64,000 nt of DNA from an archaeon (GCA_029258795.1 JAPDKB010000002.1:62001-126000); one strand, 5' to 3'; shown: positions 1,833-62,172, counted from the first letter of the stretch. Made by a program: numbers and translations. Notes: generated from the letters alone by a model not told the origin.

Positions 1833-2005
1833 GCGGGGGTTGCCGAGCCTGGCCAAAGGCGCTGCCTTGAGGGGGCAGCCGCCGCGGTGTATGAGAGGTG
1901 GCGCCGCAGTGGCCCATTCCCTTAGTGGGTTCGAGGGTTCAAAAGCTTGGTCAAGCCGTCCTCCCTCGGCAGCTTAAATGGCTGGAAGTCCCTCCCCCCG
2001 CACCA
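1833..2005 (+). tRNA. tRNA-Leu(GAG) with T-loop intron and a variable-arm insertion
   Basis: The acceptor GCGGGGG (1833-1839) pairs with CCCCCGC (1995-2001), followed by A and an encoded CCA. The anticodon stem CTGCC/GGCAG encloses TTGAGGG, giving anticodon GAG (1869-1871). The T stem GAGGG (1933-1937) and CCCTC (1990-1994) are separated by 52 nt. Removing 1943-1987 (45 nt) leaves the T loop TTCAAGT. A second insertion of about 39 nt (1879-1917) lies between the anticodon stem and a normal variable arm (T-CCC-TTAGT-GGG-TTC); it contains the hairpin GCCGCC/GGTGGC. The T-loop intron is well supported. The exact ends of the variable-arm insertion are inferred by comparison with the next tRNA-Leu. 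Confidence 0.85.
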
Positions 2006-2034
2006 CCATCATGCTTCATGTTCCTTACGTTCAT

Positions 2035-2175
2035 GCGGGGGTTGCCGAGCCTGGCCAAAGGCGCGGGGCTTAGGACTCCGTGGCTCAGTGCCTGCGTGGG
2101 TTCGAAGGCCGCTGTTCGGTGGCTGGGTTTTCAAGTCCGATCTTAACGCGGCCGGAACTCCCACCCCCCGCACCA
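2035..2175 (+). tRNA. tRNA-Leu(TAG) with T-loop intron
   Basis: The acceptor GCGGGGG (2035-2041) pairs with CCCCCGC (2065 onward in the 3' arm, at 2165-2171), followed by A and CCA. The anticodon stem CGGGG/CTCCG encloses CTTAGGA, anticodon TAG (2071-2073). The variable arm is T-GGC-TCAGT-GCC-TGC, with no insertion. The T stem GTGGG (2096-2100) and CCCAC (2160-2164) are separated by 59 nt. Removing 2106-2157 (52 nt) gives the T loop TTCGACT. The intron has the helix GGCCGC/GCGGCC and ends in GGAA. Its D arm is identical to that of the tRNA-Leu 30 bp upstream, so the two look like a duplicated pair that diverged in anticodon and introns. Confidence 0.9.
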
Positions 2176-2244
2176 GCCCGAACCAGATTTCTGCCAAGAA
2201 TTCACCATTAATTATATAAACGATGAAATCCCCAACCTTTACTC

Positions 2245-4284
2245 ATGAAGAAAGTACCGATCATGAGCGCTCTTTTAATCTCCGTATTTGTTTTTATCCT
2301 ATTTCTCCCAGCATCCCATGCGGTTCAGATAATCATAATCAACGAAACTGAGGAATTCGCGCCAGCAAACCTCGAAAAAATGGTTATCAGTGGCGATCTA
2401 TTTGAGGGCATGCTGTATTTTAGCGCAGAAGGTTATGCGGCTGAAACCGGAGGGAAGGCAAAGGTTTACATAGCAGGAAAGCCCTCCGACATTCTTGTTG
2501 AAAGCGTGACAATCAACGGAAATGAAGGAAAGGTGTTTTTTGACGAGCGGGGGTATTTTGTGGTTGTTGATACGCCCTCCTTCCATCTTGAAGGCAGGAT
2601 AAAAGTGAGGAGCGGCGATAACATTCTGTTTTTCCCCGGACCAATAAACAAGCTGGAGTTCCGGCTTAAACATGGCTATGCGATAAACGGTCCGGAGTTT
2701 TACGGTGTGGTGAACAAGACAATCACCCTCAAGAAAACTTTCGTGGAAAGGTACATCTCTGTTACTGGCTCTGGCAAGATAACTGTCGAAAGCACAAATA
2801 CTGTAAGGTTCAAGTACGTGTTCGAGGTTGCGGGATATGGAGGGGTTATAGGCACGCTATCAATACCTCTGAACAACGGCGAGCTTGTTAACATCATTGA
2901 CGTGGATAACTGCGCTGGTTCCAGCTGGAACAAGAACGAGGAAGGCATAACCTTCCAGCTGCCGTGCGAGAAGGCAATAATCACGCTGGAAGGTGTGTTC
3001 TCCTGCGGGGAATGCAATTCTATCCGCTTCACAAACCCGATAGACAGCTATATGAAAGTGATTGTGGAGGCAGTGCCGGAAAAGAAGCTCACAATCAGGA
3101 CATATGCAACGGAGCTGGATGTGAGTGAAGCACCATTTCCCATGCAATATCCTAACGGCAGGGTCTTTCTGCTCAGCGGGCATCAAGCCATGACTATTGA
3201 GGTTGAGGAGCTTGAGAAACTTCCTGCTCTTGCCGCAACTATTGATAGGGCAAAATGTACGCAAGCCATAAATAAGGATGGTGCTGCACTGACGAGTTGC
3301 GAGTACCGCTACAAGAACAGCGGTATGGATTTCATAAAGTTTGAGCTGGAAGGCACGCCATTATATGCTGAAGCTAACGATAAGTCGCTCAGGCTTACGG
3401 TTGAAGATGATGACCTTTATCTCGCTTTTCCGAAGAGCAGGTATGGAGGAGATATGGAAATCATGTATTTCACGAGCATGTCAAGAATTCTACCTATTGA
3501 TTTGATCAGCTTGCCCATCCCATCCACAGAAGTTCCAACAACCGAAATGGCTGTCGATGTTTACCTGCCCAAGGACGTTTACGTTCTGGCAGCTTTTGGA
3601 GGGGACAGATTTACAAGCGAGCTTCCTGCTCTTGAGTTTGTTGTGGCGTTCACCATAGCAGTGCTTCTTGTTGGACTCGCGCTGTGGAACGATAAGAGGA
3701 AGCTTCTCATGTTTTATGTCGTTTCCGCAGCCATATACTTCATCTCCCAGCAGCTCTTCCTGATATGGCTTGCAATCTGCCTGCTTCCGTTTGTTAAGCG
3801 CAACCTGCCGACGGAGGAAATAAAGAAGACGTGGAGGGTTATAAAGTTTCTTCTTGCTACGGGAATTGTCATAGCTGCTCTGTTTTTCGTTATTTCATGG
3901 CTGTTTTCCGGAACGGGTAGCTATATGGCAGCTAAGCAAGAAGCGGCAGTGTATAAAGCTACAGGTGAGCGATTCATTGGAAATATGCCGGTGGTGGAGG
4001 AGAAGAGTGTGCAGCTTGGCGAGGAGGGTAAGGGAACAATAACCATACAGCTGAAGGAGGGAATAAAGCCGGTGAAGATGGAGATACCGCAGCTGGGTAA
4101 GGTTGTCTCGCTGCACCGCGCTCTTGTGACAGCGGAAAGACCGGCAAGCTTTAAGCTGGTTGTGATTGACAGGCTTGTGATCTACATGTTGCTGCTGGTA
4201 GCTCTCTATTTCTTCCTCAAACTGCTTCCCGATCTCAAGAAAGCGTACATCGATGCATTTCCCTCTCTCAGAAAAATAAGGTGA
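2245..4284 (+). CDS. Large secreted/membrane-anchored protein, unknown family
   Basis: 679 residues. A signal peptide spans residues 1-26 (charged MKK, hydrophobic core, ASHA cleavage region). A beta-rich extracellular part runs to about residue 460. Then come membrane segments near 468-486 (FVVAFTIAVLLVGLAL), 492-520, 533-555 and 642-665, so the C-terminus is polytopic. A lone CGEC pair and a few other cysteines lie in the extracellular part. A TATA box (ATTATATAAA, 2211-2220) sits about 25-30 bp before ATG 2245, indicating a leaderless mRNA. I do not recognise a named family. The layout suggests a surface-exposed protein with a membrane-embedded tail. It is convergent with thiI, 3 bp away. 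Confidence 0.75.
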   Translation: MKKVPIMSALLISVFVFILFLPASHAVQIIIINETEEFAPANLEKMVISGDLFEGMLYFSAEGYAAETGGKAKVYIAGKPSDILVESVTINGNEGKVFFDERGYFVVVDTPSFHLEGRIKVRSGDNILFFPGPINKLEFRLKHGYAINGPEFYGVVNKTITLKKTFVERYISVTGSGKITVESTNTVRFKYVFEVAGYGGVIGTLSIPLNNGELVNIIDVDNCAGSSWNKNEEGITFQLPCEKAIITLEGVFSCGECNSIRFTNPIDSYMKVIVEAVPEKKLTIRTYATELDVSEAPFPMQYPNGRVFLLSGHQAMTIEVEELEKLPALAATIDRAKCTQAINKDGAALTSCEYRYKNSGMDFIKFELEGTPLYAEANDKSLRLTVEDDDLYLAFPKSRYGGDMEIMYFTSMSRILPIDLISLPIPSTEVPTTEMAVDVYLPKDVYVLAAFGGDRFTSELPALEFVVAFTIAVLLVGLALWNDKRKLLMFYVVSAAIYFISQQLFLIWLAICLLPFVKRNLPTEEIKKTWRVIKFLLATGIVIAALFFVISWLFSGTGSYMAAKQEAAVYKATGERFIGNMPVVEEKSVQLGEEGKGTITIQLKEGIKPVKMEIPQLGKVVSLHRALVTAERPASFKLVVIDRLVIYMLLLVALYFFLKLLPDLKKAYIDAFPSLRKIR

Positions 4285-4287
4285 TCT

Positions 4288-5454
4288 TCACTGCTCTCTC
4301 TTGCTCCCGATCGTCACCAGCTCCGTGTTTTCAAGCGCTTTTTCCACAAGCCCTTCAACATCCATATTCTCCTCTATTCTCTTCACAACCTCCAGCTTTG
4401 CCCTTGTTTCGGGATGCTTCGCTATCATGAACGAGCAGCAATCGGGATATGGTTGAATTGAAATTTCGTACGTGCCGATCCTTTTTGCAAGATCTATGGT
4501 TTCCTCCTTGTCAAAGCCAGCTAGCGGTGTGAGCACGGGCATGCCTGTAGCTTCATAAATCGCTGCAAGATTGTCCAGAGTTTGCGATGCTACCTGCGCC
4601 ACATTGTCTCCGGTGACAAGCGCGTTTGCTCCCTCCTTTCTCGCTATTTTTTCACCTATCCTCATCATGAACCGCCTGTAGATTATCATTCTGTAGGAGG
4701 CGGGCACAACCTTTATTATCTCGCGCTGCACATCTCCAAAATTCACCATGTAGAGCTTGCTCTCGCCCTGAAATTCTGCAAGCACCCTCACAATGCTCTC
4801 GATCTTCTTCCTCACCTCCCTGCTGTGCAGCGTTTCATTGAAGAAATGGACAAAAACAATTTTGCATCCGCGTTTCATGAGAAGGAATGATGCAACAGGG
4901 CTGTCTATACCGCCTGAAAGCAGGGACACCACCCTGCCGGAAACGCTGACCGGCAGACCGCCAACACCCTCAATTCTTTCCGTGTAGATGTACGCTTCCT
5001 TCTCACATATCTCGATGTGCACCACAACATCCGGCTCTTTCATCTTCACCTTCTTGCCCAGCTTCTCCACCACCACACTCCCAACCATTCTGTTGATCTC
5101 CATCGAGTTGTATGGAAAGGATTTGTTTGAGCGTGATGCCGCTATCTTGAACGTGCTGAACTTCATGTCCTGGAGAATGGCTACTGCAGCTTTCTTGATC
5201 GCCTCGATATCCAGCTTGCAAACCCTTGCCAGCGCGAAATATCTTATGCCCGGAGTTTTGCTGAGCTTCTCCGCAATTTCATCAGCCTTGCTTTCATCTC
5301 TAATCTCCACTATTATCCTTCCAAACCTTCTCCTTGCCAGCGCGCCGGCCCCCTTCACCTTCCTGTTGATGTTCTCCACCAGCTTTTTCTCAAAGAATTC
5401 CCTGTTCTCTCCTTTCAACCCTATTTCGGAATAATGCACAACAAAAACCTTCAT
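4288..5454 (-). CDS. thiI: tRNA 4-thiouridine synthetase ThiI (no rhodanese domain)
   Basis: 388 residues. The N-terminal ferredoxin-like and THUMP RNA-binding region covers about 1-165. The PP-loop ATPase motif SGGIDSP is at 180-186, and a CCSF cysteine pair lies near residue 345. ThiI adenylates U8 of tRNA and transfers sulfur to make s4U; in some organisms it also feeds thiamine synthesis. Bacterial enzymes such as E. coli ThiI carry a C-terminal rhodanese domain, which is absent here as is usual in archaea. Sulfur may come from the IscS encoded at 37324-38496 (inference). A TATA-like CTTTTTAACC about 28 bp upstream supports leaderless ATG 5454. Confidence 0.93.
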   Translation of the reverse strand: MKVFVVHYSEIGLKGENREFFEKKLVENINRKVKGAGALARRRFGRIIVEIRDESKADEIAEKLSKTPGIRYFALARVCKLDIEAIKKAAVAILQDMKFSTFKIAASRSNKSFPYNSMEINRMVGSVVVEKLGKKVKMKEPDVVVHIEICEKEAYIYTERIEGVGGLPVSVSGRVVSLLSGGIDSPVASFLLMKRGCKIVFVHFFNETLHSREVRKKIESIVRVLAEFQGESKLYMVNFGDVQREIIKVVPASYRMIIYRRFMMRIGEKIARKEGANALVTGDNVAQVASQTLDNLAAIYEATGMPVLTPLAGFDKEETIDLAKRIGTYEISIQPYPDCCSFMIAKHPETRAKLEVVKRIEENMDVEGLVEKALENTELVTIGSKREQ

Positions 5455-5500
5455 GGAGAAAAAGTATTGTGAGGAAAGGTTAAAAAGGATGAACCCGGGT

Positions 5501-6082
5501 TTACTTGCCCCTGCCCTGATTTGCTCTTATGCTCGGCCTTACCTTCTCAGCACCTTTACCCTTGTTTCTCAATCCTCTGGCTTTCTTGCCCGCTGAGGTC
5601 AGCCCTCTAAACACCCTGCCTTTGTGCGCCTTTCCCGCTATCCATCCGAGCTGTTCATCGTTCTTTATGGCCGGATGGTGTGGGTCGAGCATTATCACCT
5701 CATACCACACGTACTGTCCGTCCTCCCCCACATAATAGCTGTTCAGAACTTCGAGGTTTGGATAGTGCCTTGCTGCCCTCTCCTCAGCTATCCACTGCAA
5801 GCTTTTCTTCGGACTGAACAGAACGAAACCGTATCTCTTTGGTCTCCTACCCTGCCTGTGTCTCGGCCTCTCTCTTCCACCCCTCTTAACACGTACCCTG
5901 ACAACAACCACACCCTGCTTTGCTTTATAGCCGAGCGATCTTGCCCTGTCTATTCTTGTGGGTCTCTCAACTCTAACCACGGCAGGTTCTCTCCTCCACT
6001 TTATCAATCTCTCCTGCCATAGCTTGCCCAAGCTTTCCTTCGGTCTCTTCCACAGGGTTCTGACGTACTGGTACATGCCCAT
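5501..6082 (-). CDS. rpl15e: 50S ribosomal protein L15e
   Basis: 193 residues, basic throughout, and recognisable end to end as archaeal/eukaryotic L15e: the [12 protein letters not shown] start, [18 protein letters not shown] core and [19 protein letters not shown] tail. It binds 23S rRNA in the large subunit. The start ATG 6082 follows GGAGTGATG. A TATA box on this strand (about 6132-6143) predicts a leader of roughly 25-30 nt. It lies between thiI and a small membrane-protein gene on the same strand. Confidence 0.97.
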
Positions 6083-6183
6083 AGAACATCACTCCATAAA
6101 CAACTGACAAACTTTCTTCATCCTCCGCAACATTTATATATTTAACTGCGCCGACTTCGTGAAGCAGTATGCCCTATACTCAA

Positions 6184-6513
6184 TCACTTTTTCTTGGAAG
6201 AGGTGCTTTTCTTCTTGGTTGTGCTTTTTGCTTTGGTTGCTGTTTTCTTTGTTTTCTTCTCCCCAACCTCGGCTTCAACCTCCTCCAGCTCGGCTTCTTC
6301 TTCCTCCAGCAGCTTGTTCATCTTGTAATCATCCCACGCTATCCACGCTACAAGCATGCCCATGAAGAACAGGAATGCTCCGAAGACGCCCTCAAACACT
6401 ATCTTGAGGCTTTTCCAGAGTGCCGCTCCAAAGTACGGGATGTTACCGATATACCAATAGATGCCAGCAGCCATCAGCAGGATACCTATGACCATCTTAA
6501 CTCCATTGTTCAT
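6184..6513 (-). CDS. Small membrane protein with Glu- and Lys-rich cytoplasmic tail
   Basis: 109 residues from ATG 6513, chosen over the upstream ATG 6531 because GAGGTGG lies about 5 nt before it. There are two membrane segments (about 6-24 and 38-62), then an acidic stretch (LLEEEEAELEEVEAEV) and a final run of about 25 mostly Lys, Thr and Ser residues. No family is recognised. The head-to-head neighbour is the XPD helicase gene. The acid-then-base tail resembles low-complexity nucleic-acid- or membrane-contacting tails, but that is only an impression. Confidence 0.7.
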   Translation of the reverse strand: MNNGVKMVIGILLMAAGIYWYIGNIPYFGAALWKSLKIVFEGVFGAFLFFMGMLVAWIAWDDYKMNKLLEEEEAELEEVEAEVGEKKTKKTATKAKSTTKKKSTSSKKK

Positions 6514-6684
6514 CCGACCACCTCTAAGCATTTTTCCAGCTTTTCTGAAATTAGCGAGGGAAATTTTAAAAATCTACCAACCGCGCTCAAAAGGTCAGAG
6601 AAACGGGGAGAGTGTAAGCTGGGTTTTCCTTTCGGCATCCATGTTCTGCTAACCTTAAAAATGTTCCCTCTGCAGTTTTTCAAC

Positions 6685-8571
6685 ATGCGCTTCTTCCCGT
6701 TCTCAACGATCAGGCCCGGACAAAAGGATATGGTGGAAGCTGTAAGGGATGCGTGCGAGCAGGGGAAAGTTCTGCTGGTGCACGCTCCAACCGGAATAGG
6801 AAAGACCGCAGCTTCGCTTGCTCCTTCCTTGGAATATGCGGTGGAGCATGACAAGAGAGTTGTGTTTTTAACTCCGAGGCACACGCAGCACAAGATAGCT
6901 ATTGATACAGTCAGAAGGATAAATGCTCGTGCCAACGTGAATCTGAAAGTTGTGGATGTGATCGGTAAGAAGTGGCTTTGCAGGATGGAGGGAATAGAAA
7001 AGCTGAGCTCCGCTGAGTTCAACGAGTACTGCAGAGCTCTGAAGAGAAACGAGGCCTGCCCTTTTTACAACAACACGTGGAACAGGAGAAGTGGAGGGCT
7101 TACCAAGAAAGCTGAGGCCATGATAAAAAGCGTGAGGAGAGATGTACTCTATGCGGAAGAGGTCTATGAACTTTGCGATGACCTGTGCCCCTATGAGATC
7201 CTCATGCAGGCAGCCAGAAATGCCAACCTGCTGATAGGAGACTATTATCATATCTTCCATGAAAGAATAAGGAAGAGCTTCCTCGGCAGGAGCAACACGA
7301 AGCTGGAGGATGTTGTTCTTGTGGTGGATGAAGCGCACAACTTGCCAGCAAGGATAAGGGAACTCATGTCATCATCAACAAGCCTGCTTGCAATGAAAAG
7401 AGCTGAGAGAGAAGCGGAGGTTTTTGGCTACGACGATCTGGCCGAGATCATAGCCACAATCAGAACGCATGTGAAAAAGAAGCTGAAGGAAAAGCTGGAG
7501 AAATCCGGAACACCTCAGCTTTACGTTGGAAGAAGTTTGCTGCTCGATGCAGCTGAAAATAGTGGTGCTGATCTGGAAGAGCTGCTGGACTACATGGAGG
7601 AGGTGGCTGACGAGGTCAGGGAGGAGAAAAAGCGCTCATATGTTGGCGGGTTTGCATCATTTTTGAGGAGGTGGAAGGATGAAGCTCCAATCTACTGCAG
7701 AATAGCGGAGAAGAAGCTGACCAGAAAGGGCAGAACCAACTATGTTCTCACGCTTCACTGCCTTGACCCCGCTCCCATTGCCTCGGAGGTGTTTAAGGAA
7801 GCGCATGCCACAATTCTCATGTCCGGCACCTTGCTCCCGCTTGAAATGTATGCAGATGTGCTCGGCGCAACGGAACTTGATGCAGTCAGATTGAAACTGA
7901 GGTCGCACTTTCCGCGCAGCAACAAGCTTGAGATCGTGGTGGATGATGTTACAACCCAGTACAACAGAAGGGAGGAAAGGAACTTCGAGAAAATAGCGAA
8001 ATACATCATTTCAGTAGTTAATGCCACTCCTGACAACGTTTGCGTTTTCTTCCCGAGCTATGAGCTCCGCGACACCATCGCAAGAATGGTTGAGCTCTCG
8101 CTTGAAAAGAAGGTGCTTCTGGAGAAGCAGGGGATGAGCAAGAGCAGGAAAGCGCAGCTATTCCATGAGTTTGTAAGCGCAGCTGAGCAGGGAGGAGCAT
8201 GCCTGCTTGGTGTGATGGGTGGCAGCTTCGATCAGGGTGTTGACTTTCCGAACAACGTGGTGAAGTGTGTTATCGTGGTGGGGCTGCCACTCGAAAAACC
8301 GGATTTGCTGACCGAAGCGATGATAAACTACTATGATGCTAAATTTGGCAAGGGATGGGATTATGCCTACACCTATCCCGCAGTCATAAAAGCGCAGCAA
8401 GCAGCTGGAAGAGCCATAAGGAGTGAGAAGGATAAAGCGGTTGTGGTTTATATGGACAAGCGTTATCTCTGGGCAAACTACAGAAAGTGCTTCCCTGCTG
8501 AAACAAGATTCATAGTGTCAAGAAATCCAGCAGAGCTCATAAAAAGGTTCTTCTCGGATAGCAAGAAGTGA
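6685..8571 (+). CDS. xpd: XPD/Rad3-family DNA helicase with Fe-S domain
   Basis: 628 residues from ATG 6685. The same frame is open far upstream, but that part is antisense to the 6184-6513 gene. A TATA-like TTAAAAAT at 6655-6662 places the transcript start at about 6685. Walker A APTGIGKT is at 34-41 and DEAH at 215-218. Cysteines 99, 116, 125, 164 and 168 lie in the position of the 4Fe-4S domain, four of which are expected to bind the cluster. The C-terminal helicase motifs are present, including QAAGRAIRSEKD. The family is a 5'-3' superfamily 2 helicase used in nucleotide excision repair. Its 3' end overlaps the convergent gene below by 35 bp. Confidence 0.93.
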   Translation: MRFFPFSTIRPGQKDMVEAVRDACEQGKVLLVHAPTGIGKTAASLAPSLEYAVEHDKRVVFLTPRHTQHKIAIDTVRRINARANVNLKVVDVIGKKWLCRMEGIEKLSSAEFNEYCRALKRNEACPFYNNTWNRRSGGLTKKAEAMIKSVRRDVLYAEEVYELCDDLCPYEILMQAARNANLLIGDYYHIFHERIRKSFLGRSNTKLEDVVLVVDEAHNLPARIRELMSSSTSLLAMKRAEREAEVFGYDDLAEIIATIRTHVKKKLKEKLEKSGTPQLYVGRSLLLDAAENSGADLEELLDYMEEVADEVREEKKRSYVGGFASFLRRWKDEAPIYCRIAEKKLTRKGRTNYVLTLHCLDPAPIASEVFKEAHATILMSGTLLPLEMYADVLGATELDAVRLKLRSHFPRSNKLEIVVDDVTTQYNRREERNFEKIAKYIISVVNATPDNVCVFFPSYELRDTIARMVELSLEKKVLLEKQGMSKSRKAQLFHEFVSAAEQGGACLLGVMGGSFDQGVDFPNNVVKCVIVVGLPLEKPDLLTEAMINYYDAKFGKGWDYAYTYPAVIKAQQAAGRAIRSEKDKAVVVYMDKRYLWANYRKCFPAETRFIVSRNPAELIKRFFSDSKK

Positions 8572-8884
8572 AGCCAAAAATCCTGTATTCCACACTCCTA
8601 CGAAGCAACCGTTCTTTCCTACTAATTTTCAATTCTTCCTCCATAGCCCTCCTCAAACATTCCATTGATGCGTGAAGATAATTAATGCGATATTTTAGCT
8701 TTTCTCGTGGAGTGTTCTGGGCGAGCTCATGAAAGCAGTCACTTAACCATTTCCAGCCATCTGGATCGTCGGGATGTTCGTCAACATACTTAAGAAAAAG
8801 GTCTTTTGCCGCTTTGTAATTCCCCTCAGCATAAAGCTGCTTTGCTATGTGGTAAGGCGAGGTTATCTCTCTTATCTCAGCCAT
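8537..8884 (-). CDS. Small TPR-like helical protein
   Basis: 115 residues. Residues about 11-80 form a TPR-like pair of helices (AKQLYAEGNYKAAKDLFLKYVDEHPDDPDGWKWLSDCF), the usual protein-protein interaction repeat. The C-terminus is Arg-rich. A TATA box (AATTTAAAAC, about 8910-8920) lies about 28 bp before ATG 8884. The last 35 bp overlap the 3' end of the XPD gene on the other strand, which makes the final dozen residues the least certain part. No partner can be named from context. Confidence 0.65.
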   Translation of the reverse strand: MAEIREITSPYHIAKQLYAEGNYKAAKDLFLKYVDEHPDDPDGWKWLSDCFHELAQNTPREKLKYRINYLHASMECLRRAMEEELKISRKERLLRRSVEYRIFGFTSCYPRRTFL

Positions 8885-9467: not shown

Positions 9468-9473
9468 TGTTTT

Positions 9474-11390: not shown

Positions 11391-11394
11391 GGTG

Positions 11395-19686: not shown

Positions 19687-19809
19687 TGGTGCGCCGGCCG
19701 GGATTTCCTGCTGCGGAACAGCCGGAAATGTGAGGGAGTTTCTTCCGCAGCAATCGAACCCGGGTCAGCGGCTTGGGGGGCCGCTGTCATACCACTAGAC
19801 CACCGGCGC
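19687..19809 (-). tRNA. tRNA-Gly(CCC) with T-loop intron
   Basis: On the minus strand GCGCCGG pairs with CCGGCGC, followed by A and an encoded CCA. The anticodon stem GCGGC/GCCGC encloses CCCCCAA; the anticodon CCC is at complement(19775..19777), and position 33 is C instead of the usual T. The T stem CCGGG/CCCGG is interrupted. Removing 19705-19753 (49 nt) leaves TTCGAAT. The intron begins and ends with a perfect 10-bp helix (TGCTGCGGAA/TTCCGCAGCA), and its last bases are GGAAA. This is the cleanest T-loop intron in the window. Confidence 0.92.
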
Positions 19810-24036: not shown

Positions 24037-24189
24037 GGGCCGGTGGTCTAGCCTGGAAGGACGTCGCCTTGGCATCACACAGCTTTCACGGCTGTGTGCC
24101 AGTATGGCGGAGGCCCCGGGTTCAAAATGGCTGCTTACGCCGTTTTAAGAATCGGGCAAGCTTTCATGAAAATCCCGGCCGGTCCACCA
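24037..24189 (+). tRNA. tRNA-Ala(GGC) with anticodon-loop and T-loop introns
   Basis: GGGCCGG pairs with CCGGTCC including the G3:U70 pair that marks alanine tRNA, followed by A and CCA. The anticodon stem TCGCC/GGCGG encloses 37 nt. Removing 24075-24104 (30 nt, canonical 37/38) gives TTGGCAT, anticodon GGC at 24071-24073. The T stem CCGGG/CCCGG encloses a second intron, 24126-24171 (46 nt), whose removal gives TTCAAAT. The D stem is only 3 bp (GTC/GAC), unusual for Ala. The T-loop intron is clearly related to that of tRNA-Thr (44671-44794). Confidence 0.9.
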
Positions 24190-29076: not shown

Positions 29077-29357
29077 GCGGCAGGGCTAGGCCGGGGAGCT
29101 AGCCCCTCCCTGTAACCGCAAACGGGCTAACGGCGGGGCCGAAAACCGGGGGGCGGGCGATTGGCGGCTCGCTGGGCAGCTTGCTGCTGAACAATGACTC
29201 TCTGCCCCCGAAGGCCGCTGTACCGGTGAACCGGGTCAGGCCCGGAAGGGAGCAGCCCTAAGCCGGTACTTCGGTGCTTCGGGATCAGCGGAGAGGAGGT
29301 AGGCAGCATCTCTGCCCGCGAGCTTAGCCGCGCTCCACCCCCGGGAAGCCCTGCCGC
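29077..29357 (+). ncRNA. Signal recognition particle 7S RNA
   Basis: About 281 nt. The ends pair (GCGGCAGGG with CCCTGCCGC), forming helix 1 as in archaeal SRP RNA. The central region has the conserved helix-8 elements GTCAGGCCCGGAAGGGAGCA and AGCCGGTACTTCGGTGC. It is the RNA of the particle that targets signal-peptide-bearing proteins with SRP19 and SRP54. GC content is much higher than in the surrounding genes. AAATATTTAATAG upstream (about 29045-29057) is a plausible TATA region. The Lon-like gene starts 29 nt after its end. Confidence 0.95.
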
Positions 29358-30275: not shown

Positions 30276-30409
30276 TGGCGCCGCGGGCCGGATTTTCACT
30301 TCTCAAAGAGCAGGTTTCCTCTTTTATTCCCAGCTCCGCTTCGAACCGGCGCGCCCTTGCGGGCAGTGGCTCTCGAGGCCACCGCACTACCTGGCTATGC
30401 GACCGCGGC
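30276..30409 (-). tRNA. tRNA-Ser(CGA) with T-loop intron
   Basis: On the minus strand GCCGCGG pairs with CCGCGGC, then G and an encoded CCA. The anticodon stem GTGGC/GCCAC encloses CTCGAGA, anticodon CGA. The long variable arm (TGCCCGCAAGGGCGC) marks a serine tRNA. The T stem GCCGG/CCGGC is interrupted; removing 30294-30340 (47 nt) leaves TTCGAAT. The intron ends GTGAAA. Confidence 0.92.
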
Positions 30410-40805: not shown

Positions 40806-40929
40806 CCCGCCGTAGCTTAGTCTGGTAGAGCGCTCGGCTGTAGGTCTGTGCCGCGTGGTATGGCGCAGCCACGCAGCCAGTTGCTCAGAAACCGAGAGGT
40901 CCCCGGTTCGAATCCGGGCGGCGGGACCA
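40806..40929 (+). tRNA. tRNA-Tyr(GTA) with canonical anticodon-loop intron only
   Basis: CCCGCCG pairs with CGGCGGG, followed by A and CCA; C1:G72 is typical of archaeal tRNA-Tyr. The anticodon stem CTCGG/CCGAG encloses the loop CTGTAG plus A, anticodon GTA (40840-40842), with intron 40844-40890 (47 nt) at 37/38. The T arm CCCGG-TTCGAAT-CCGGG is normal. This is the only tRNA in the window without a T-loop insertion. Confidence 0.93.
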
Positions 40930-44670: not shown

Positions 44671-44794
44671 TGGAGCCCCGGCCGGGATTTTCATGGAAGA
44701 TTACTCGACCCTTAAAGCGGCGTCGAGCAGCCATTTTGAACCCGGGACCTCTTCCTTACCAGGGAAGCGCTCCACCAGGCTGAGCTACCGGGGC
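44671..44794 (-). tRNA. tRNA-Thr(GGT) with T-loop intron
   Basis: On the minus strand GCCCCGG pairs with CCGGGGC, then T and an encoded CCA. The anticodon stem CTTCC/GGAAG encloses CTGGTAA, anticodon GGT. The T stem CCGGG/CCCGG is interrupted; removing 44689-44735 (47 nt) leaves TTCAAAT. The intron starts AATGGCTGCT and ends CCATGAAA, like that of tRNA-Ala (24126-24171), and has an internal helix CTCGAC/GTCGAG. Confidence 0.92.
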
Positions 44795-54813: not shown

Positions 54814-55641
54814 TCACAGCTCCGGCTCTTCCGCGTGATTCCACAGAATTTCGAAGACGCTGTGCGCAAAGTTGCGAGCGAAATGCTCCGAGCCAGTCCA
54901 CAAAGACACTTCCTGTGAGGGGTGTGTATCCTCTCCACTCAAAGTCATGATTGCTCCTTTTCCGTCAGCGATGAACATCTTACCGTAAGGTATCTTTGGC
55001 ATCTTACCCTGCAAGGTGTTCAAATCTTTTATCTCTGCAACACCTTTAAGCATCTCTGCCGCCTTTACATTGTTCGGAGTTATGGGTGCAAGAATTCTTA
55101 TTCTAACTCCCTTGTCAGCAGCTTTTTGCAGAACTCCGGAATGAACATTCACGAGCTCCTTCAACCCCTCTTCTGTGGTTATGATATCCAGAGTTTTTTC
55201 AGCACTTTTAGCCATGTTTTCGAATCTCTGGTAGAGAGCATATCTGCCCTTAAGTGAGCCAGTGAGGTCGGCAGGTTCAACCAAGCTAACACCCTTGGAA
55301 TAGAGGTTCTTAAGCTCTACAAAAGCATCACTCGTCTTGAACTCCTCAATCCTGCTCACCATCTCCTTCAATTCCTCATGCAGCCTTGCCTTAACTCTTT
55401 CAAGAGCTTCCTCCGGCTCGACAGCAACATATTTTATGGGCTTGGAGTGCTGAATAATGACAAAACCCTTTTCAGCAAGGGACTCAAGCACATCATACGT
55501 TCTGGAGCGAGGAACGTTAGAAAGCTCGGCGAGCTCTCCAGCAGTTGCAGCACCTCTCGCAAGAAGAGCGGCATAAAGCTTCCTTTCATAAAGATTCAAA
55601 CCAAGCATTTTCAAAGCATCCATGGCTTTTCTGCTTATCAT
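54814..55641 (-). CDS. TrmB-family transcriptional regulator
   Basis: 275 residues. N-terminal winged helix (LGLNLYERKLYAALLARGAATAGELAELSNVPRSRTYDVLESLAEKGF, about 13-60), followed by the TrmB ligand-binding domain in which a phospholipase-D-like fold is expected. TrmB regulators control sugar uptake and metabolism genes. No transporter or metabolic gene is adjacent, so the regulon is unknown. TATA CTTTATATAG about 55 bp upstream. Confidence 0.9.
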   Translation of the reverse strand: MISRKAMDALKMLGLNLYERKLYAALLARGAATAGELAELSNVPRSRTYDVLESLAEKGFVIIQHSKPIKYVAVEPEEALERVKARLHEELKEMVSRIEEFKTSDAFVELKNLYSKGVSLVEPADLTGSLKGRYALYQRFENMAKSAEKTLDIITTEEGLKELVNVHSGVLQKAADKGVRIRILAPITPNNVKAAEMLKGVAEIKDLNTLQGKMPKIPYGKMFIADGKGAIMTLSGEDTHPSQEVSLWTGSEHFARNFAHSVFEILWNHAEEPEL

Positions 55642-55842
55642 GCTCTCACCACACCACGCCTCTTTTTATCGTTTTTCATTATTTTTTCCGAAACGAATCT
55701 ATATAAAGATTACCTTTAAAGAGTTGTCCTACAAAGTTCAAACTTGTTGCTCTATATTTTATTGAGACATCTTTTTAAACCTTTCTATTTTCACCACTCA
55801 TAGGTGACTACTCAAGCAACAAGTGAGAGCTTGAAGCTTTCC

Positions 55843-57825
55843 TTACCCGGATCTGTGACGCTGTATCGTGTACAAGTGTTCTATCCTGCCTAATGTATCT
55901 ATCTCCTCAACACTTTTATCGGCGCGTAATCTAACGAATCTGGGGAATCTCAGGGCATAGCCAGAGGTGTAGTGAGGAGATTTTTGGATTTCCTCGTAGC
56001 TGACCTCAACTACCACCTGAGGCATAACCTCCACTTCTTTCCCCTTCTCCTTGATTATTAGCGGTTTGAGCAGATTCGTCATTTCCTCGTATGTTGTGCC
56101 CTCCTCACTCTTTTCTTTCAGACCCGTTGACATCTTGCCCACAGTTAACAGCTCTCCTGTGTCCTCATCTCTACACGCGAGAATGTAAGAGGTGAGCCAT
56201 CCGGAACGCTTACCTTCACCCCATTCCGCACCCACTATAACCAGATCAAGGGTTTCCAGCGTGGTCTTCAGCTTCACCATGTATCCAACTCTTGAGCCGG
56301 GTTTGTAGACCGCATCAAGATTTTTGAACATCACGCCCTCATTTCCGAGATCAAGAGCTTCCTCAAAGAAGCGCTGAGCTTCTTCATCCTTGTCCGTTAT
56401 CAGTTGCTTTGCAAGCACCATAACGTATGGCTCTTCCTTTATTATGCTTTTCAGCAGCTCTCTCCTCTTTCGGAAGGGAAGGTCGATGGTGAGCTCACCC
56501 TCCAGATAAACTATGTCGAAAAGGTTGGTCATCACGGGAATTTCTTTAGCCATCTTCTCTATCTCATACTTTCTCTTTATTCTTCTCGAAATCTTCTGGA
56601 AAGGCAACCACTTCTTCGTTTCCTTATCGTAGCCAATGGTTTCACCCTCTATCACACACCGTTTTGCAGTAACGTGTTTTCTGACCGCTTCAACAACATC
56701 CGGAAACTGCTTTGTGACATCTTCCAGCCTCCTGGTGAATATCTTCACTTTATCTCCATCCTTGTGTATCTGCACCCTGAATCCATCGTACTTGTATTCA
56801 AGTGCTGCTGGTCTCCCCACCATATCAAACGCTTCTCTGACGGAGTAAGCGCGTTGAGCGAGCATGACCCTTATGGGCCTGAACAGGATCAGCTTGACTC
56901 TCTTTAAGCCATCTTCACCCTCGTTTTTTGCAACCTTTGCCACAAGTGCGAGGTCATTGGTGAGGGCATAAGCCCTCTCAAGCAAATCAATTATTTTCTG
57001 CTTCATCTCGCTTCCCTTCTCAGCCGAAGAAAGGATGAGGATATCCACATTGCTTTTTTTCTTCCACAGTACATCGAGTTTCTCAATTTCCTCCTTACCT
57101 ACAATCTTAACATCATTGTTCTTCAGGAACTCCTGAAACTTGAGGGAACTCATTCTTTCGAGGGAGATGTAAGCACTTTTTTCCACCCACACCATCTTGC
57201 CCTTTTCTTCGAAAAGCGCATCATACCTCTTCTTTCCATCTCCGTATGGTTGAGTAAGTAGGGCTTCCCATATCACATCTGTGAAATAAGCTTTAGCTAT
57301 TCCATCCCTGATTATCCCTTCCGCCACACCAACTCTCAGATCTCCCAGCACAGTCCTAACTATGTACTTCGCTTCAGCGGGAGAAGCGTGTATTAGAAGC
57401 TCGGATATGAGCATGATCTTCCTTTCCTGCGAGCCCCCCCCCTCCAGCTGCGCCGCTTTTTTCAAATTCTCAAACACCTTATCCACGCTCAGCTCCTGCC
57501 TGAATAATGTCACCTGCTTTCTGCGAGAAGCCAATTCCTCCACTATCAAACCCAGATCTCCCTTTTCCTTCCATTTTGCCTCAATTTCACTCTCACTCAC
57601 GCCGTAAGCCCTTGACACCGCCCTTATAGTCAGCTTGGTGGCAACGCCTATCTCTTCTTCACTCCATGGAGGAAACACCGTGCCCATTATCAGCAGTATG
57701 GATTTTTCAAGAAGGTCATCCTCCTCTATTTTTTCCAAAAATCTTGCAAGAATTTCGGTTTTTTTTATCTTGGAAGTTGTAGATGCCAACGCATCGTACA
57801 GCTTCACGAACTCAGCGTACTTCAT
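55843..57825 (-). CDS. lig: ATP-dependent DNA ligase with a large insertion
   Basis: 660 residues. Catalytic Lys345 lies in EYKYDGFR, followed by RRLEDVTKQFPDVV, EGETIGYD, EGVMFKN and the K-x-K motif in MVKLKT. Archaeal ligases are about 560-600 residues; the extra length is an insertion at about 190-285 (between GIAKAYFTDVIWEALL and ERAYALTNDLALVAKV) in the DNA-binding domain. A run of nine C (57434-57442; G on the coding strand) encodes part of EGGGSQ. It seals nicks with ATP. TATA TATTTAAAATT about 25 bp upstream supports ATG 57825. Confidence 0.94.
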   Translation of the reverse strand: MKYAEFVKLYDALASTTSKIKKTEILARFLEKIEEDDLLEKSILLIMGTVFPPWSEEEIGVATKLTIRAVSRAYGVSESEIEAKWKEKGDLGLIVEELASRRKQVTLFRQELSVDKVFENLKKAAQLEGGGSQERKIMLISELLIHASPAEAKYIVRTVLGDLRVGVAEGIIRDGIAKAYFTDVIWEALLTQPYGDGKKRYDALFEEKGKMVWVEKSAYISLERMSSLKFQEFLKNNDVKIVGKEEIEKLDVLWKKKSNVDILILSSAEKGSEMKQKIIDLLERAYALTNDLALVAKVAKNEGEDGLKRVKLILFRPIRVMLAQRAYSVREAFDMVGRPAALEYKYDGFRVQIHKDGDKVKIFTRRLEDVTKQFPDVVEAVRKHVTAKRCVIEGETIGYDKETKKWLPFQKISRRIKRKYEIEKMAKEIPVMTNLFDIVYLEGELTIDLPFRKRRELLKSIIKEEPYVMVLAKQLITDKDEEAQRFFEEALDLGNEGVMFKNLDAVYKPGSRVGYMVKLKTTLETLDLVIVGAEWGEGKRSGWLTSYILACRDEDTGELLTVGKMSTGLKEKSEEGTTYEEMTNLLKPLIIKEKGKEVEVMPQVVVEVSYEEIQKSPHYTSGYALRFPRFVRLRADKSVEEIDTLGRIEHLYTIQRHRSG

Positions 57826-57893
57826 GAAAGGAATTTGTGCGGTGGAATTTTAAATAAGTTAAAACAAGAGAATCGGAAAAGCGCTTGTGGGTT

Positions 57894-58730
57894 TTATCTT
57901 TTGCTGCGTTTTTCCCTATCACCGAGAATGGTGCTCACAACTTCAAATGGCAGGAGGAATATAACTTTCTGGTTTGGATCGCTTGCAGTATCCGCAAGGG
58001 TGTGCAGCGTTCTCAAATGCAGAGCTTCAGGAACGCTTGCTATCTTCTTTCCAGCTTTCACAAGATTCTCGGCAGCTTTAACCTCACCCTCTGACTTTAT
58101 GATCACCGCTCTCTTCTCCCTTTCCGCCTCTGCCTGCCTTGCCATGGCCCTTCTCATTTCCTCCGGTAATTCTATGTCCTGAAGCCTCACACCAGTGACA
58201 TCTATACCCCAATCATCCGTGATCTCATCCACAACCTTTCTTATCTCTTCAGCAATCTCATCCCTCTTCTGCAGAACGTCATCCAGCTCTTTACCGCCTA
58301 TCACATCCCTCAGCACGGTCTGGGAGTACATCATGGTAGCGTATTTATAATCTTCCACATTCAGCACGGCTTTGTCTGGATACTGCACCCTGAAGAACAC
58401 GGTTGCGTTTATTTTTACAGGCACGTTGTCCTTGGTTATCACTTCCTGCTTGGGCAGGTCAATTGTCTGTATTCTCATATCGATTTTGCGAAGGTTCTGG
58501 ATGATCGGCGCGACCCACACCAGCCCGGCATCAAGCAAACCCTTATACTTACCAAGGGTGAATATCACACCCTTCTCGTACTGATAGATTATTTTGATAC
58601 CTGCTAGGGCATACAGGACTATGAGAATCCCAACAATAATCGCTTTCCCACCTATAGCAAATATAAGCGCTATGCCAACAAGAAGCAAAATTAAGAACGC
58701 GCTCATTTGAAGTGTGTTTTTGTACGCCAT
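57894..58730 (-). CDS. SPFH-family (stomatin/slipin-like) membrane protein
   Basis: 278 residues from ATG 58730. TATA ATATAAAAT at about 58751-58760 lies 25 bp upstream, so the frame continuing to 58790 is not translated. Two N-terminal hydrophobic segments (about 10-50) are followed by the SPFH/Band 7 domain (YEKGVIFTLGKYKGLLDAGLVWVAP) and a coiled region (EEMRRAMARQAEAEREKRAVIIKSEGE). Such proteins organise membrane domains. The usual partner NfeD is not adjacent. Confidence 0.9.
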   Translation of the reverse strand: MAYKNTLQMSAFLILLLVGIALIFAIGGKAIIVGILIVLYALAGIKIIYQYEKGVIFTLGKYKGLLDAGLVWVAPIIQNLRKIDMRIQTIDLPKQEVITKDNVPVKINATVFFRVQYPDKAVLNVEDYKYATMMYSQTVLRDVIGGKELDDVLQKRDEIAEEIRKVVDEITDDWGIDVTGVRLQDIELPEEMRRAMARQAEAEREKRAVIIKSEGEVKAAENLVKAGKKIASVPEALHLRTLHTLADTASDPNQKVIFLLPFEVVSTILGDREKRSKR

Positions 58731-58872
58731 AAGCTCTTTAGGGGAGCTTAATTTTATATGTTTTTTCAGGATGGGAAAAACGGTCATCATGACGGAAAAC
58801 TTGATTATGGAGGCGTTTCTAATTGAAATTTTTTAATAAATGACAATATATAGTGTAAACGTGGGTGAAAAA

Positions 58873-59205
58873 ATGGATGATGAAATTAGATTTAAAGATT
58901 CGAGACGCGAAACGAAAGAATCAAGGTATAAATTCGCAAAATACGCTTTTCCAATAAGTGCTCTTCCTATAGGTGTGGCAGCGGAAGTTGTATGGCTCAA
59001 GGTACTTGGTGAAATGAACTATGAACCAGAAATTCTGGGGTACGTTCAAGAAATAATACCATTATTTGATCCGCTTACAGGAATTGGAATGATGATAATA
59101 GGAATTGGAACAGGACTGGGTGCAGAAAGGGCTTACAAATATTTTGACAGAAAGGAGAAAGAAGCGAAATACCACGAAAACCTAATGGACCGCTACGATT
59201 ACTGA
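58873..59205 (+). CDS. Small membrane protein, unknown
   Basis: 110 residues from ATG 58873. GGTGAAAAA precedes it and a TATA box (AATATATAG, 58845-58853) agrees with a nearly leaderless start, which rules out ATG 58840. Charged N-terminus, two hydrophobic segments (about 22-45 and 62-85), charged C-terminus. No family is recognised. Confidence 0.68.
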   Translation: MDDEIRFKDSRRETKESRYKFAKYAFPISALPIGVAAEVVWLKVLGEMNYEPEILGYVQEIIPLFDPLTGIGMMIIGIGTGLGAERAYKYFDRKEKEAKYHENLMDRYDY

Positions 59206-59303
59206 GGTCAAGTCTCGAGTATGGATGAGCCCACAATCTTACTCATCTACACTTCAATTCTTAAAGTCAATAACAAGAACAAGTCCAAAAAACAATTGGT
59301 TGC

Positions 59304-59352
59304 GGGCGCGTCCTTGGATGCGACCGGGGAGAAGAAAAAAGCGGACGCGCCC
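59304..59352. terminator. Perfect 10-bp GC-rich inverted repeat between convergent genes
   Basis: GGGCGCGTCC (59304-59313) pairs with GGACGCGCCC (59343-59352) around a 29-nt loop. It lies 12 bp from the ftsZ stop and 99 bp after the 58873 gene. It is most simply a transcription stop or an mRNA-end structure for ftsZ. No clear T-tract follows on either strand, so this role is uncertain. Confidence 0.45.
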
Positions 59353-59363
59353 ACACGATCTGT

Positions 59364-60467
59364 TCAGTGTCTGATTATCTCTATACCCAGTGCCTCGCCC
59401 AAGCTCTTTTTCTCAAGCTCTTCAGCGGTTTCTGAAGGCCCGAGCACATACGGGCTCTTTACACCGGTTATGATGGTTATCACTCTTATCTTTCCATCCA
59501 TACCAGGGTCAATTCTTGCACCCCAGATGGTCTGAGCGTTTGCATCCAGATGTTTCTGCACATACGTTCCTATTTCGTTTATCTCGCTGAGCTTGAGGTC
59601 TTTTCCACCAGATATGTGTATCAGAGCTCCATTTGCTCCAGTGTAATCCACATCAAGTAACGGATTTTCAAGCGCTCTCTCGACAGCTTCCCTTGCTCTT
59701 GACGCGGATGAACTCTCTCCGATACCTATCATTGCCACGCCTCCAACGCTCATCACGGCTTTCACATCAGCGAAATCCAGATTGACGAGGGATGGCTGAG
59801 ATATGGTTTCCGTTATACCTTTTATCATTGTCACGATAATTTCATCCGCAACAGCAAACGCCTGATCAAGCGACATCTCTCCTGCTATATCCAGCAGGCG
59901 GTCGTTTTCTATCACAATTACGGTGTCTGTAACTTTTCTCAGGTTAACAAGCCCTTCTTCCGCCTTGTGGATTCTCGCACCCTCTATCCTGAAGGGCATT
60001 GTAACAACACCAATCACTATAGCTCCTTGACTTTTTGCAATCTCAGCCACAACCGGAGCTGCTCCTGTTCCGGTACCGCCACCCATACCTGCTACCACGA
60101 AAACCATGTCCACTCCACGTAGAACATCTTTAATTTCGTTAATGGACTCTTCAGCCGCTTTTTTACCAACATCAGGATATCCCCCCGCTCCAAGCCCCCT
60201 CGTAACCTCTTGTCCGAGGAGTATCTTCCTATCCGCTTTAATCATTTTGAGGTGTTTCGCGTCGGTGTTCATGGCTATCGTTTCTGCTCCTATAATTCCG
60301 ATTGTACTTAGCCGATTAATGGCATTACATCCCATGCCTCCTATCCCCACCACTGCAATTCTGGCCTCCTGTGGTGTCTCAAATTCAGGATTTTCGTCCT
60401 GATAATAGATAGGTACCGCATCTTTATTCATTTGCCTTTCGATTGCCTTCTGAATAATTGACTCCAT
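59364..60467 (-). CDS. ftsZ: Cell division protein FtsZ
   Basis: 367 residues from ATG 60467 (GGAGGGGG upstream); TTG 60473 is in frame. GTP-binding tubulin signature GGGTGTGAAP near 121-130, IGGMGCNAINRL near 45, T7-loop region NLDFADVK. FtsZ forms the division ring. Length is normal for archaeal FtsZ1-like proteins; the C-terminal tail is short and ends KSLGEALGIEIIRH. It is divergent from the nucleotidyltransferase gene across the 447-bp repeat region. Confidence 0.96.
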   Translation of the reverse strand: MESIIQKAIERQMNKDAVPIYYQDENPEFETPQEARIAVVGIGGMGCNAINRLSTIGIIGAETIAMNTDAKHLKMIKADRKILLGQEVTRGLGAGGYPDVGKKAAEESINEIKDVLRGVDMVFVVAGMGGGTGTGAAPVVAEIAKSQGAIVIGVVTMPFRIEGARIHKAEEGLVNLRKVTDTVIVIENDRLLDIAGEMSLDQAFAVADEIIVTMIKGITETISQPSLVNLDFADVKAVMSVGGVAMIGIGESSSASRAREAVERALENPLLDVDYTGANGALIHISGGKDLKLSEINEIGTYVQKHLDANAQTIWGARIDPGMDGKIRVITIITGVKSPYVLGPSETAEELEKKSLGEALGIEIIRH

Positions 60468-60473
60468 CTTCAA

Positions 60474-60920
60474 TCCCCCTCCACCAGTTTTTTTGTGAAC
60501 ATGAACCTATAGCTCACACTACCGAAATGTTTAAATTCTCCAGTTTGCACACTATTCCTTACCCGCAAGAAACCGAGCCGTCTGCCCGCTAGGAAGAGCT
60601 GCAGACTGCCAAATAATTCAAACCCACTTCAAAGCCCGCAAGTTTTAAGCCCGCAAGGAAATTTTGCCCGCGTGTAGTGAAAAGTTTTTAAATCTCCTTC
60701 TCAGCCCGCTTAATTTAAAACCATGATTTATTTACTATATAAATCTTTTCGTAAGGGTAACTATAGTTTTAAAAATATATTTTGGTATAGTGTGACCTTT
60801 ATTTCTTGTGGAACTAACCTTAGTTTCATGTGGAAAATACAACCTTTATTAAAATACAACCTTTATTTAAGAATTTCCACCGAGTGAGAATTTAACCCTC
60901 AATCCTTGTAAGGTGAGCAT
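60474..60920. other. Repeat-bearing intergenic region upstream of ftsZ
   Basis: 447 bp, the longest gene-free stretch without an RNA. Six CCCGC motifs all face the same way between 60562 and 60709 (60562, 60585, 60635, 60650, 60667, 60705). On the other side, TACAACCTTTATT occurs twice 18 bp apart (60838 and 60856), with a degenerate ACCTTTATT at 60795, and GTGGAA appears twice (60808 and 60830) with TTCCAC at 60875. AT-rich sequence lies between the two repeat sets. It must hold both divergent promoters. A replication or cell-cycle control function is possible but unproven. Confidence 0.5.
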
Positions 60921-61937
60921 ATGCAGTGTAAAGACGTAATTCCACCACACGGCCATGGCCTGATGACCAACAATCGACTTATCTTCATCATGTGGGGCAG
61001 GGTGCTGTTCGGCAATGATCCGTTGTATGTTCTGAAGTATGTACCATCCAAAGGGTCAGGAGAAGATGTTCGAATTTTTAATGGTATGCGTTATCTGAAG
61101 GTGAGATCACCCATTTACGGCTACAGCAACATGATCGAAGTTCTCACGAGTGTTTGTCCAAAATATGTCGGCCAATCCCCATATTTTACTAGGAGGGTTG
61201 TTTGCATTCCGGAAGAGGACATCTCCCGCATTTTCTCGCCCGTCGAGATTGCAGAAAAAATAATCTCTGATCCTCAGGACCCGGTGGAAGAAAAATTTGT
61301 AGATTACTGCGAGTTTTTTAGAGAGCAGATTGGAGGGGGTGTAGGATTCGGCATCACTGCTTCACTTATGTTCGGAATGCACACCACCAAATCTGACATA
61401 GATCTGATAATTTACAGCCAAAACCCGCAGCAGGTCCAGCTGAAAATTTTTGAACTGATTGAAGAAGGGATGGTGTGCACAGCTCTCAGAGAAAACGAAA
61501 AGGAGAAGAGAATCGTTGAGAACGTGTTTCAGCAGAAGGTGGATGAAAGTTTCATAAAATGGCTTGTGGAGCAAAGAAGATATTACGGCTCATTGAGACA
61601 TCCGGAGATTGGTGTGGAGTGCCACCTCATGCTCCTGTCCAAGCAAACTAAGGTGATTGAACACAAGCCATGTGAAGTTAGACGCGTATGCGTTGAGGGA
61701 GAGGTGGTGAATGCTGATGAGACCTGCTTATCCGCGCCTGAATTTGAAATAAGGTGTGGGAATGAAACTTTCTGGGTGGTGTGCTATCACAGAGGTGGAG
61801 AGCTTGTGAAAACAGGTGATAGAGTTTCATTAGCGGGAGACATGATGAAATTTTCTGATGGCTCAGCATTAATAGCTCTCGTGGACTGGAACGATGACTG
61901 GCTCAGGATTTTGAGAACTGAGCAAAGCTTGCGCTGA
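60921..61937 (+). CDS. Nucleotidyltransferase-domain protein with C-terminal OB-like region
   Basis: 338 residues. The nucleotidyltransferase motif at about 147-172 (GFGITASLMFGMHTTKSDIDLIIY) has the GS-like turn and D-x-D. The N-terminal 140 residues are unassigned. The C-terminus (about 250-330; VCVEGEVVNADETCLSAPEFEIRC ... TGDRVSLAGDMMKFSDGSALIALV) reads like an OB-type barrel, a nucleic-acid-binding fold. The pairing suggests action on a nucleic acid or RNA-bound substrate. GGTGAGCAT precedes ATG 60921. It is divergent from ftsZ. Confidence 0.75.
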   Translation: MQCKDVIPPHGHGLMTNNRLIFIMWGRVLFGNDPLYVLKYVPSKGSGEDVRIFNGMRYLKVRSPIYGYSNMIEVLTSVCPKYVGQSPYFTRRVVCIPEEDISRIFSPVEIAEKIISDPQDPVEEKFVDYCEFFREQIGGGVGFGITASLMFGMHTTKSDIDLIIYSQNPQQVQLKIFELIEEGMVCTALRENEKEKRIVENVFQQKVDESFIKWLVEQRRYYGSLRHPEIGVECHLMLLSKQTKVIEHKPCEVRRVCVEGEVVNADETCLSAPEFEIRCGNETFWVVCYHRGGELVKTGDRVSLAGDMMKFSDGSALIALVDWNDDWLRILRTEQSLR

Positions 61938-62012
61938 GCTTCGGAAAAGAACCCTATGAAATTTTTTAAAATTACCTGCCATACTATACTCACGTTGTTA
62001 TCGTGTTTTCAC

Positions 62013-62172
62013 GGTCCCGTAGCTCAGCTGGTTGGAGCGCCGGTCTTATATGACCGCGGGAGCTAAAAATAACGGCTGTTGCTCCCGTGTCTAGGCCAGC
62101 CGGAGGTCGGGGGTTCGAAAGCCATCTAGAGAAACTGGAAAGAGAATATGGCAGAAAATCCCCCCGGGACCA
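62013..62172 (+). tRNA. tRNA-Ile(TAT) with anticodon-loop and T-loop introns
   Basis: GGTCCCG pairs with CGGGACC, then A; CCA is not encoded. The anticodon stem CCGGT/GCCGG encloses 54 nt; removing 62051-62097 (47 nt, canonical 37/38) gives CTTATAA, anticodon TAT at 62047-62049. The variable region is AGGTC. The T stem GGGGG/CCCCC is interrupted; removing 62119-62157 (39 nt) gives TTCGAAT. That intron has a GCCAT/ATGGC helix and ends AGAAA. A hairpin with a CTTATAT loop (CCGGT ... GACCG) is an alternative but leaves no correct variable region. Confidence 0.88.

Follow-up and report, generated by a model that had tools for sequence, protein, structure and literature searches.

A short insert interrupts the T loop in 30 out of 45 archaeal tRNA genes of a 1.17-Mb archaeal MAG (G000; 96% complete), and judged by their sequences these inserts are very probably archaeal tRNA introns that are spliced by proteins at position 59/60. 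We propose that they multiplied recently in this genome from a few ancestral sites, by precise copying of the intron alone between tRNA genes. G000 is placed among DPANN archaea by matches of its splicing endonuclease (EndA), and its group is presumably GTDB EX4484-52, near Nanohaloarchaeota and Aenigmatarchaeota. The eight tRNA genes described in detail lie in the window (the whole stretch of 64,000 nucleotides that was analysed, G000:C2:62001-126000), and comparisons were made with two congeners, G001 (WAPT01000001.1) and G002 (JALVWC010000015.1); G016 (ex4484_52) belongs to the same order.

The count of 30 comes from a genome-wide, intron-aware search, a check suggested by an earlier note on the window; it combines R1 (a T-arm intron covariance model trained on G000) with an intron-aware tRNA finder, and leaves out four intact tRNAs of contig C11, a probable bacterial contaminant. 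R1 was built because, with Rfam RF00005 as the only model, many interrupted genes are missed or scored too low. Most such tRNA genes can escape standard tRNA finders: in the window, ARAGORN reports one gene and Rfam two. G000 has about 10 anticodon introns and four D-loop introns in addition, and the single site 59/60 holds 30 of the about 45 introns. The D-loop introns are in Arg(TCT) (L018:1498-1619), Arg(CCT) (L019:1450-1620), Arg(TCG) (L183:113-273) and Val(CAC) (L025:1450-1620); in G001 and G002 a D-loop intron was seen in Arg(TCG) only. An odd tRNA-like gene (L016:1501-1570, corresponding to G000 C3:58040-58110) reads as Gly(TCC); it has A33, and its CCA end is not encoded. Inserts of 24-52 nt, the range in G000, are too short for group I introns, which were rejected for that reason.

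The inserts have the anatomy of a bulge-helix-bulge (BHB) motif. In the 17 introns examined first, the T stem (49-53/61-65) is intact and nucleotides 54-57 (UUCR) pair with the 3' end of the intron, with one central-helix mismatch in two of the 17; this leaves a 3-nt bulge on each side, and a cut after the second bulge base gives the junction 59/60 and a normal T loop. In the alignment of these 17 introns, 97.1% of the central-helix cells are paired, and nucleotide 57 covaries with its intron partner (AU in nine, GU in four and GC in two). We then slid the junction over positions 54/55 to 64/65 in all 30 introns and counted central pairs. All four pairs form at 59/60 in 27 introns, and three of four in the other three, whereas a full central helix is found at any neighbouring position in at most one of the 30; the mean, 3.90 out of 4 pairs at 59/60, drops to 2.50 or less at each of the ten neighbours. 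Shuffled introns have a full central helix in 0.9 cases on average (maximum 5), as against 27 out of 30 real ones. An inner helix of at least 3 bp follows directly after the 3-nt bulge in 24 of the 30 (shuffled mean 1.6, maximum 6), and these 24 T-loop introns are strict BHB motifs. The contiguous 3-bp inner helix is missing in six (Arg-TCG, Asp, His, Ser-CGA, Ser-GGA and Ser-TGA), and for some of these, going by their sequences, cleavage of relaxed motifs may be needed.

This junction differs slightly from that of the earlier note, which had placed the inserts just after A58: its boundaries are one base off, the junction 59/60 lying one base downstream in the tRNA direction. Three of the spliced loops it gave change with this correction, from TTCGAAT to TTCGATT in Gly(CCC), from TTCGACT to TTCGAAT in Leu(TAG) and from TTCAAGT to TTCAAAT in Leu(GAG). 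In Gly(CCC) and Leu(GAG), the intron-less orthologues have precisely these loops, TTCGATT and TTCAAAT, and the Leu(TAG) loop differs from that of its orthologue at nucleotide 57 only. The junction 58/59 is ruled out by the BHB geometry and by comparisons for four tRNAs: the intron-less Gly(CCC) and Val(GAC) genes of the congeners have TTCGATT, which excludes it, and for Trp and Leu(GAG) the junction 59/60 fits best and alone. Removal of the introns restores standard tRNAs, and spliced sequences equal intron-less orthologues.

In the window, the statement of the earlier note that seven of eight tRNA genes are interrupted in the T loop is borne out: in each of the seven, 39-52 nt separate the two strands of a perfect 5-bp T stem. 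The tRNA-Leu(GAG) gene (1833-2001, plus strand) has two introns, one of 31 nt at 37/38 (1873-1903) and one of 45 nt at 59/60 (1944-1988); the central helix of the latter pairs 1938-1941 with 1983-1986 (4/4 pairs, with an inner helix of 3 bp), and this intron is missing in the syntenic orthologues of G001 and G002. Close by, tRNA-Leu(TAG) (2035-2171, plus strand) has a 52-nt intron (2107-2158) spliced at 59/60, with a central helix of 2101-2104 and 2153-2156, and the syntenic site is empty in both congeners. The tRNA-Gly(CCC) gene (19691-19809, minus strand) has a 49-nt T-loop intron (19704-19752) with three of four central pairs, which belongs to the GCTGCGGA...CCGCAGC family described below. 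Two introns are found in tRNA-Ala(GGC) (24037-24185, plus strand), at 37/38 (24075-24104) and at 59/60 (24127-24172, 46 nt); the latter is 81% identical to the T-loop intron of Thr(GGT), and the spliced tRNA is identical in sequence to the G002 orthologue, which has no T-loop intron. The tRNA-Thr(GGT) gene itself (44675-44794, minus strand; T-loop intron 44688-44734, 47 nt) likewise gives a spliced sequence identical to its syntenic, intron-less G002 orthologue.

Two sites in the window are filled in G000, G001 and G002 alike. One is in tRNA-Ser(CGA) (30280-30409, minus strand), whose 47-nt T-loop intron (30293-30339) has 4/4 central pairs and lacks a contiguous inner helix, i.e. a relaxed BHB; an archaeal SRP RNA gene lies at 29079-29355 of the window (Rfam RF01857, 139 bits). 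The other is in tRNA-Ile(TAT) (62013-62171, plus strand), with introns at 37/38 (62051-62097) and at 59/60 (62120-62158, 39 nt). The anticodon of Ile(TAT) is uncommon among archaea, N. equitans and Korarchaeum being known cases (PMC8450103), and the gene itself is present in all three congeners. The eighth gene, tRNA-Tyr(GTA) (40806-40925, plus strand), has a plain T loop and an intron at 37/38 (40844-40890). Introns of 30-47 nt at 37/38 are thus also present in Leu(GAG), Ala(GGC) and Ile(TAT), and these were not in the list of the earlier note. No such tRNA was found in five trials with the mononucleotide-shuffled window, using a stricter finder that recovered five of the eight window genes (the Leu and Ser genes needed the relaxed finder).

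The inserts might instead mark pseudogenes or decaying tRNAs whose intact copies are elsewhere in the genome, and the earlier note had named such copies as evidence that would overturn the intron reading. Intact Gly(TCC), Thr(GGT), Thr(TGT) and Tyr(GTA) genes were found on C11 only (9.3 kb; L253:1-9256), in a Thr-Gly-Tyr-Thr cluster beside genes for UbiB and a Na/Pi symporter. This contig looks bacterial because of its class II Tyr tRNA, UbiB and the symporter. We found no intact archaeal copy of the interrupted isoacceptors in G000, and the exons are conserved to identity with the congeners. The pseudogene explanation is therefore extremely unlikely.

T-loop introns are far fewer in the relatives: nine in G001 and 10 in G002 versus 30 in G000, and 0-6 in other genomes of the order, where stricter filters were used so that divergent introns may be missed; in the four outgroups that were inspected the tRNAs are mostly uninterrupted. 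For Ala(GGC), Gln(TTG), Met, Thr(GGT) and Val(GAC), the spliced G000 tRNA equals, over its whole length, an orthologue without the T-loop intron in at least one congener; in the case of Cys, Leu(TAG), Gly(CCC) and Trp it is one or two bases away from such congener orthologues. Nine filled/empty pairs are syntenic: Ala(CGC), Ala(GGC), Cys, Gln(TTG), Glu(CTC), Leu(GAG), Leu(TAG), Thr(GGT) and Val(GAC). Comparison of the flanking DNA detected no synteny for the Met, Trp, Ser(TGA), Gly(TCC) and Pro(CGG) pairs.

The introns of different tRNAs are also related to each other. There are 91 intron pairs with z>4.5 (some of them orthologous introns of G001 and G002) versus none after shuffling, and most of the 91 belong to one family with the hairpin GCTGCGGA...CCGCAGC; one cluster spans at least 11 G000 isoacceptors. 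For example, the introns of Val(GAC) and Ala(CGC) share 93% identity, against 72% for their exons; those of Leu(CAA) and Leu(CAG) show no difference over 47 nt, the two tRNAs themselves being 95% alike. Near-copies in unrelated tRNAs, such as Val(GAC) and Ala(CGC), point to a recent spread. The earlier note's claims that the inserts are introns and that they have spread thus gain support from two sides, near-identical introns in different tRNAs and precise empty orthologous sites in the congeners. The Leu(CAG) intron, which is found in all three congeners, may stand close to the founder. A dispersed repeat outside tRNAs was considered and rejected for the exact family hairpin: an exact-match search found it nowhere in G000 outside tRNA T loops.

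It could be argued that the introns are ancestral to the genus and were lost in G001 and G002, with no burst in the G000 species. Eight or nine sites are common to all three genomes, and the Ala(GGC) and Glu(CTC) sites are each filled in one congener and empty in the other, indicating turnover. Loss on this scale is nevertheless improbable, as the other genomes of the order have only 0-6 such introns and the near-identical introns in unrelated G000 tRNAs need recent copying; by parsimony, we infer gain in G000 rather than loss in the congeners. Long-tract gene conversion is disfavoured as the route of gain, since the exons beside gained introns equal those of the empty orthologues. Changes at nucleotide 57 in Leu(TAG), Ser(TGA) and Gly(TCC) (the last relative to G002) could reflect short conversion or co-evolution with the central helix.

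With three species of one genus that have from about nine to 30 introns at one position, donor, target and timing become traceable in the multiplication of archaeal tRNA introns. We propose that in the pre-tRNA the T stem would serve as the outer helix of the BHB motif, with UUCR (exon nucleotides 54-57) and the 3' end of the intron (UGAA or similar) forming the 4-bp central helix; a single EndA would cut the 3-nt bulges (mostly AA|N and AA|U) after the second base, and RtcB would join the exons to a normal 7-nt T loop. An intron that ends in UGAA plus two bulge bases could form a BHB in almost any tRNA with no change to the exon, whereas anticodon-loop introns would have to pair with anticodon-specific bases. 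Position 59/60 would then be a universal landing site, because nearly every tRNA carries UUCR in its T loop, next to a G+C-rich stem; the preference for this site would have a simple explanation in the T loop, which provides an identical 5' half of the BHB helix in nearly all tRNAs. Intron-only copying between tRNA genes presumably proceeded either by reverse splicing of RNA followed by reverse transcription and recombination, or by short-tract DNA conversion. A bolder version, which we put forward tentatively on the sequences at hand and consider rather unlikely, is that the GCUGCGGA...CCGCAGC UGAAAA family is a minimal mobile RNA copied at the RNA level, and that the catalytic lysine of EndA has moved to a loop (K138); EndA and RtcB would reverse-splice the intron precisely into T loops of unrelated tRNAs, with reverse transcription and recombination as the next steps, and leave exon bases untouched.

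Selection is another possible reason for the presence of these introns, which may be kept because they disrupt tRNA 3' halves that serve as integrase attachment sites. The T arm of tRNA genes is often used by integrative elements, and the introns sit in the T arm. Neutral or selfish spread, however, fits the near-copies and the fast length turnover equally well, and we regard selection of this kind as quite unlikely.

Both enzymes needed for the proposed splicing are encoded in G000. The earlier note had called for identification of the endonuclease subunits; we found one EndA gene (L033:1501-2091), encoding a single-unit protein of 197 aa, and one RtcB gene. There is no second EndA subunit or three-unit fusion among PF01974/PF02778 matches at E<=10 in the 96% complete genome, a search that could miss a very divergent beta subunit or one encoded in the missing 4%. 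The EndA model (mean pLDDT 92) has as its best fold match 1a79, the narrow-specificity alpha4 enzyme of M. jannaschii. By size and fold the G000 EndA appears alpha4-like, enzymes of that type being single-unit proteins of about 180-200 aa, and it may form a homotetramer as they do. The alignments contain no CSL- or ASL-like insertion (the Crenarchaea- and ARMAN-specific loops) at the corresponding place.

The active site is unusual. Tyr126 and His143 are present, but an alanine lies at the position of M. jannaschii Lys156, which leaves the Tyr-His-Lys triad incomplete. Alanine, serine or threonine is found at this position in the G000 EndA and its DPANN relatives (L034-L142; 112 sequences in the alignment, which includes some records twice), which were compared with 18 lysine-bearing EndA proteins from other archaea. 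The DPANN subfamily has an inserted GxK loop just before His143, with K134 and K138 (K138 in 99% of the sequences), and T144, S163 and R164 are invariant in it; the loop is absent in 89% of the lysine-type set, and N. equitans EndA has both the inserted loop and the lysine. A replacement lysine in EndA of the G000 type is likely, because alanine at the catalytic lysine abolished cleavage by the ARMAN-2 enzyme (PMC12397907). The alanine makes the mechanism of cleavage less certain than the motif. In six Aenigmatarchaeota loci (L061, L105, L117, L134, L141 and L142) there are tandem second EndA copies without the catalytic histidine, which are probably structural subunits of a heteromeric enzyme.

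The earlier note had suggested that a relaxed specificity of the endonuclease evolved and drove the spread. Four observations are in line with this: the six introns without a contiguous inner helix, the D-loop introns in four tRNAs, the unique inserted loop with a conserved lysine in this EndA subfamily, and the fact that broad-specificity enzymes are usual in intron-rich archaea (PMC4090602, PMC4033280). But 24 out of 30 introns are strict BHB motifs, the only EndA found is a single-unit protein with a fold nearest to the M. jannaschii alpha4 enzyme and no CSL- or ASL-like insertion in the alignments, and the same EndA subfamily is present in relatives with 0-10 T-loop introns. Relaxed specificity is unneeded for the 24 introns, since they are strict motifs and the alignments show no known broad-specificity loop in the enzyme; as the cause of the spread it is not supported, and we consider it unlikely. 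Intron richness together with a single-unit EndA runs counter to the usual link of non-canonical introns with (alpha beta)2 or epsilon-2 enzymes.

The earlier note had also called the near-universal use of T-loop introns in such a genome unexpected, which is overstated: 59/60 is a known tRNA intron site (PMC4090602), and intron-bearing fractions of 70% in Thermoproteales and 92-95% in Asgard tRNA sets have been described (PMC11291895); Pyrobaculum calidifontis has 46 tRNAs with 71 introns among them (PMC8450103). In Thermoproteales, tRNA introns are known to have transposed on a large scale (Fujishima 2010, cited in PMC4090602 and PMC4033280), and the marks of transposition of that type, related introns in different isoacceptors beyond chance and empty orthologous sites in relatives, are both found for G000. 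Thermoproteales resemble G000 in having BHB introns (including 59/60), similar introns across isoacceptors and intron-rich tRNA sets; G000 differs in being DPANN and not Crenarchaeota, in its one dominant site, in its filled and empty sites within a genus and in its single-unit EndA without CSL, as opposed to (alpha beta)2 in Thermoproteales. In the Asgard Atabeyarchaeia and Freyarchaeia (PMC11291895) most tRNA genes are intron-bearing, often with non-canonical or multiple introns as in G000, but these belong to a different superphylum. ARMAN (Micrarchaeota; PMC4033280, PMC12397907) is, like G000, a small DPANN-type archaeon with non-canonical introns; its EndA is of the epsilon-2 type, whereas that of G000 is single-unit, with no ASL-like insertion and no lysine at the usual place. 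We found no earlier report of T-loop introns in the G000 lineage in the literature searched (subscription papers were outside the search). The lineage, the dominance of one site, the filled/empty pairs within a genus and the enzyme type are new.

A survey with R1, whose threshold was meant to leave out most intron-less T arms and whose training on G000 makes counts elsewhere rough, finds such introns in 60 out of 145 genomes of a phylum that is presumably Nanoarchaeota (with G037 and G311; up to 26 in G311) and in 89 out of 227 genomes of another, presumably Asgard (with G043; up to 14 per genome). In G311, 20 stretches contain 21 tRNAs that can be read completely and have a T-loop intron. G037 (at least six introns) and G311 (the 26 R1 matches) share the 59/60 BHB anatomy with G000, but their intron sequences are unrelated and the lineage is separate; it thus seems that there were two or more bursts at 59/60. 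More uncertainty attaches to the Asgard counts, because 16 stretches of G236 and G237 (L312-L327) gave only about 10 such tRNAs that were readable over their full length. These two genomes, presumably Asgard, have 13-14 T-loop matches each, and many of their tRNAs also carry D-loop or anticodon introns.
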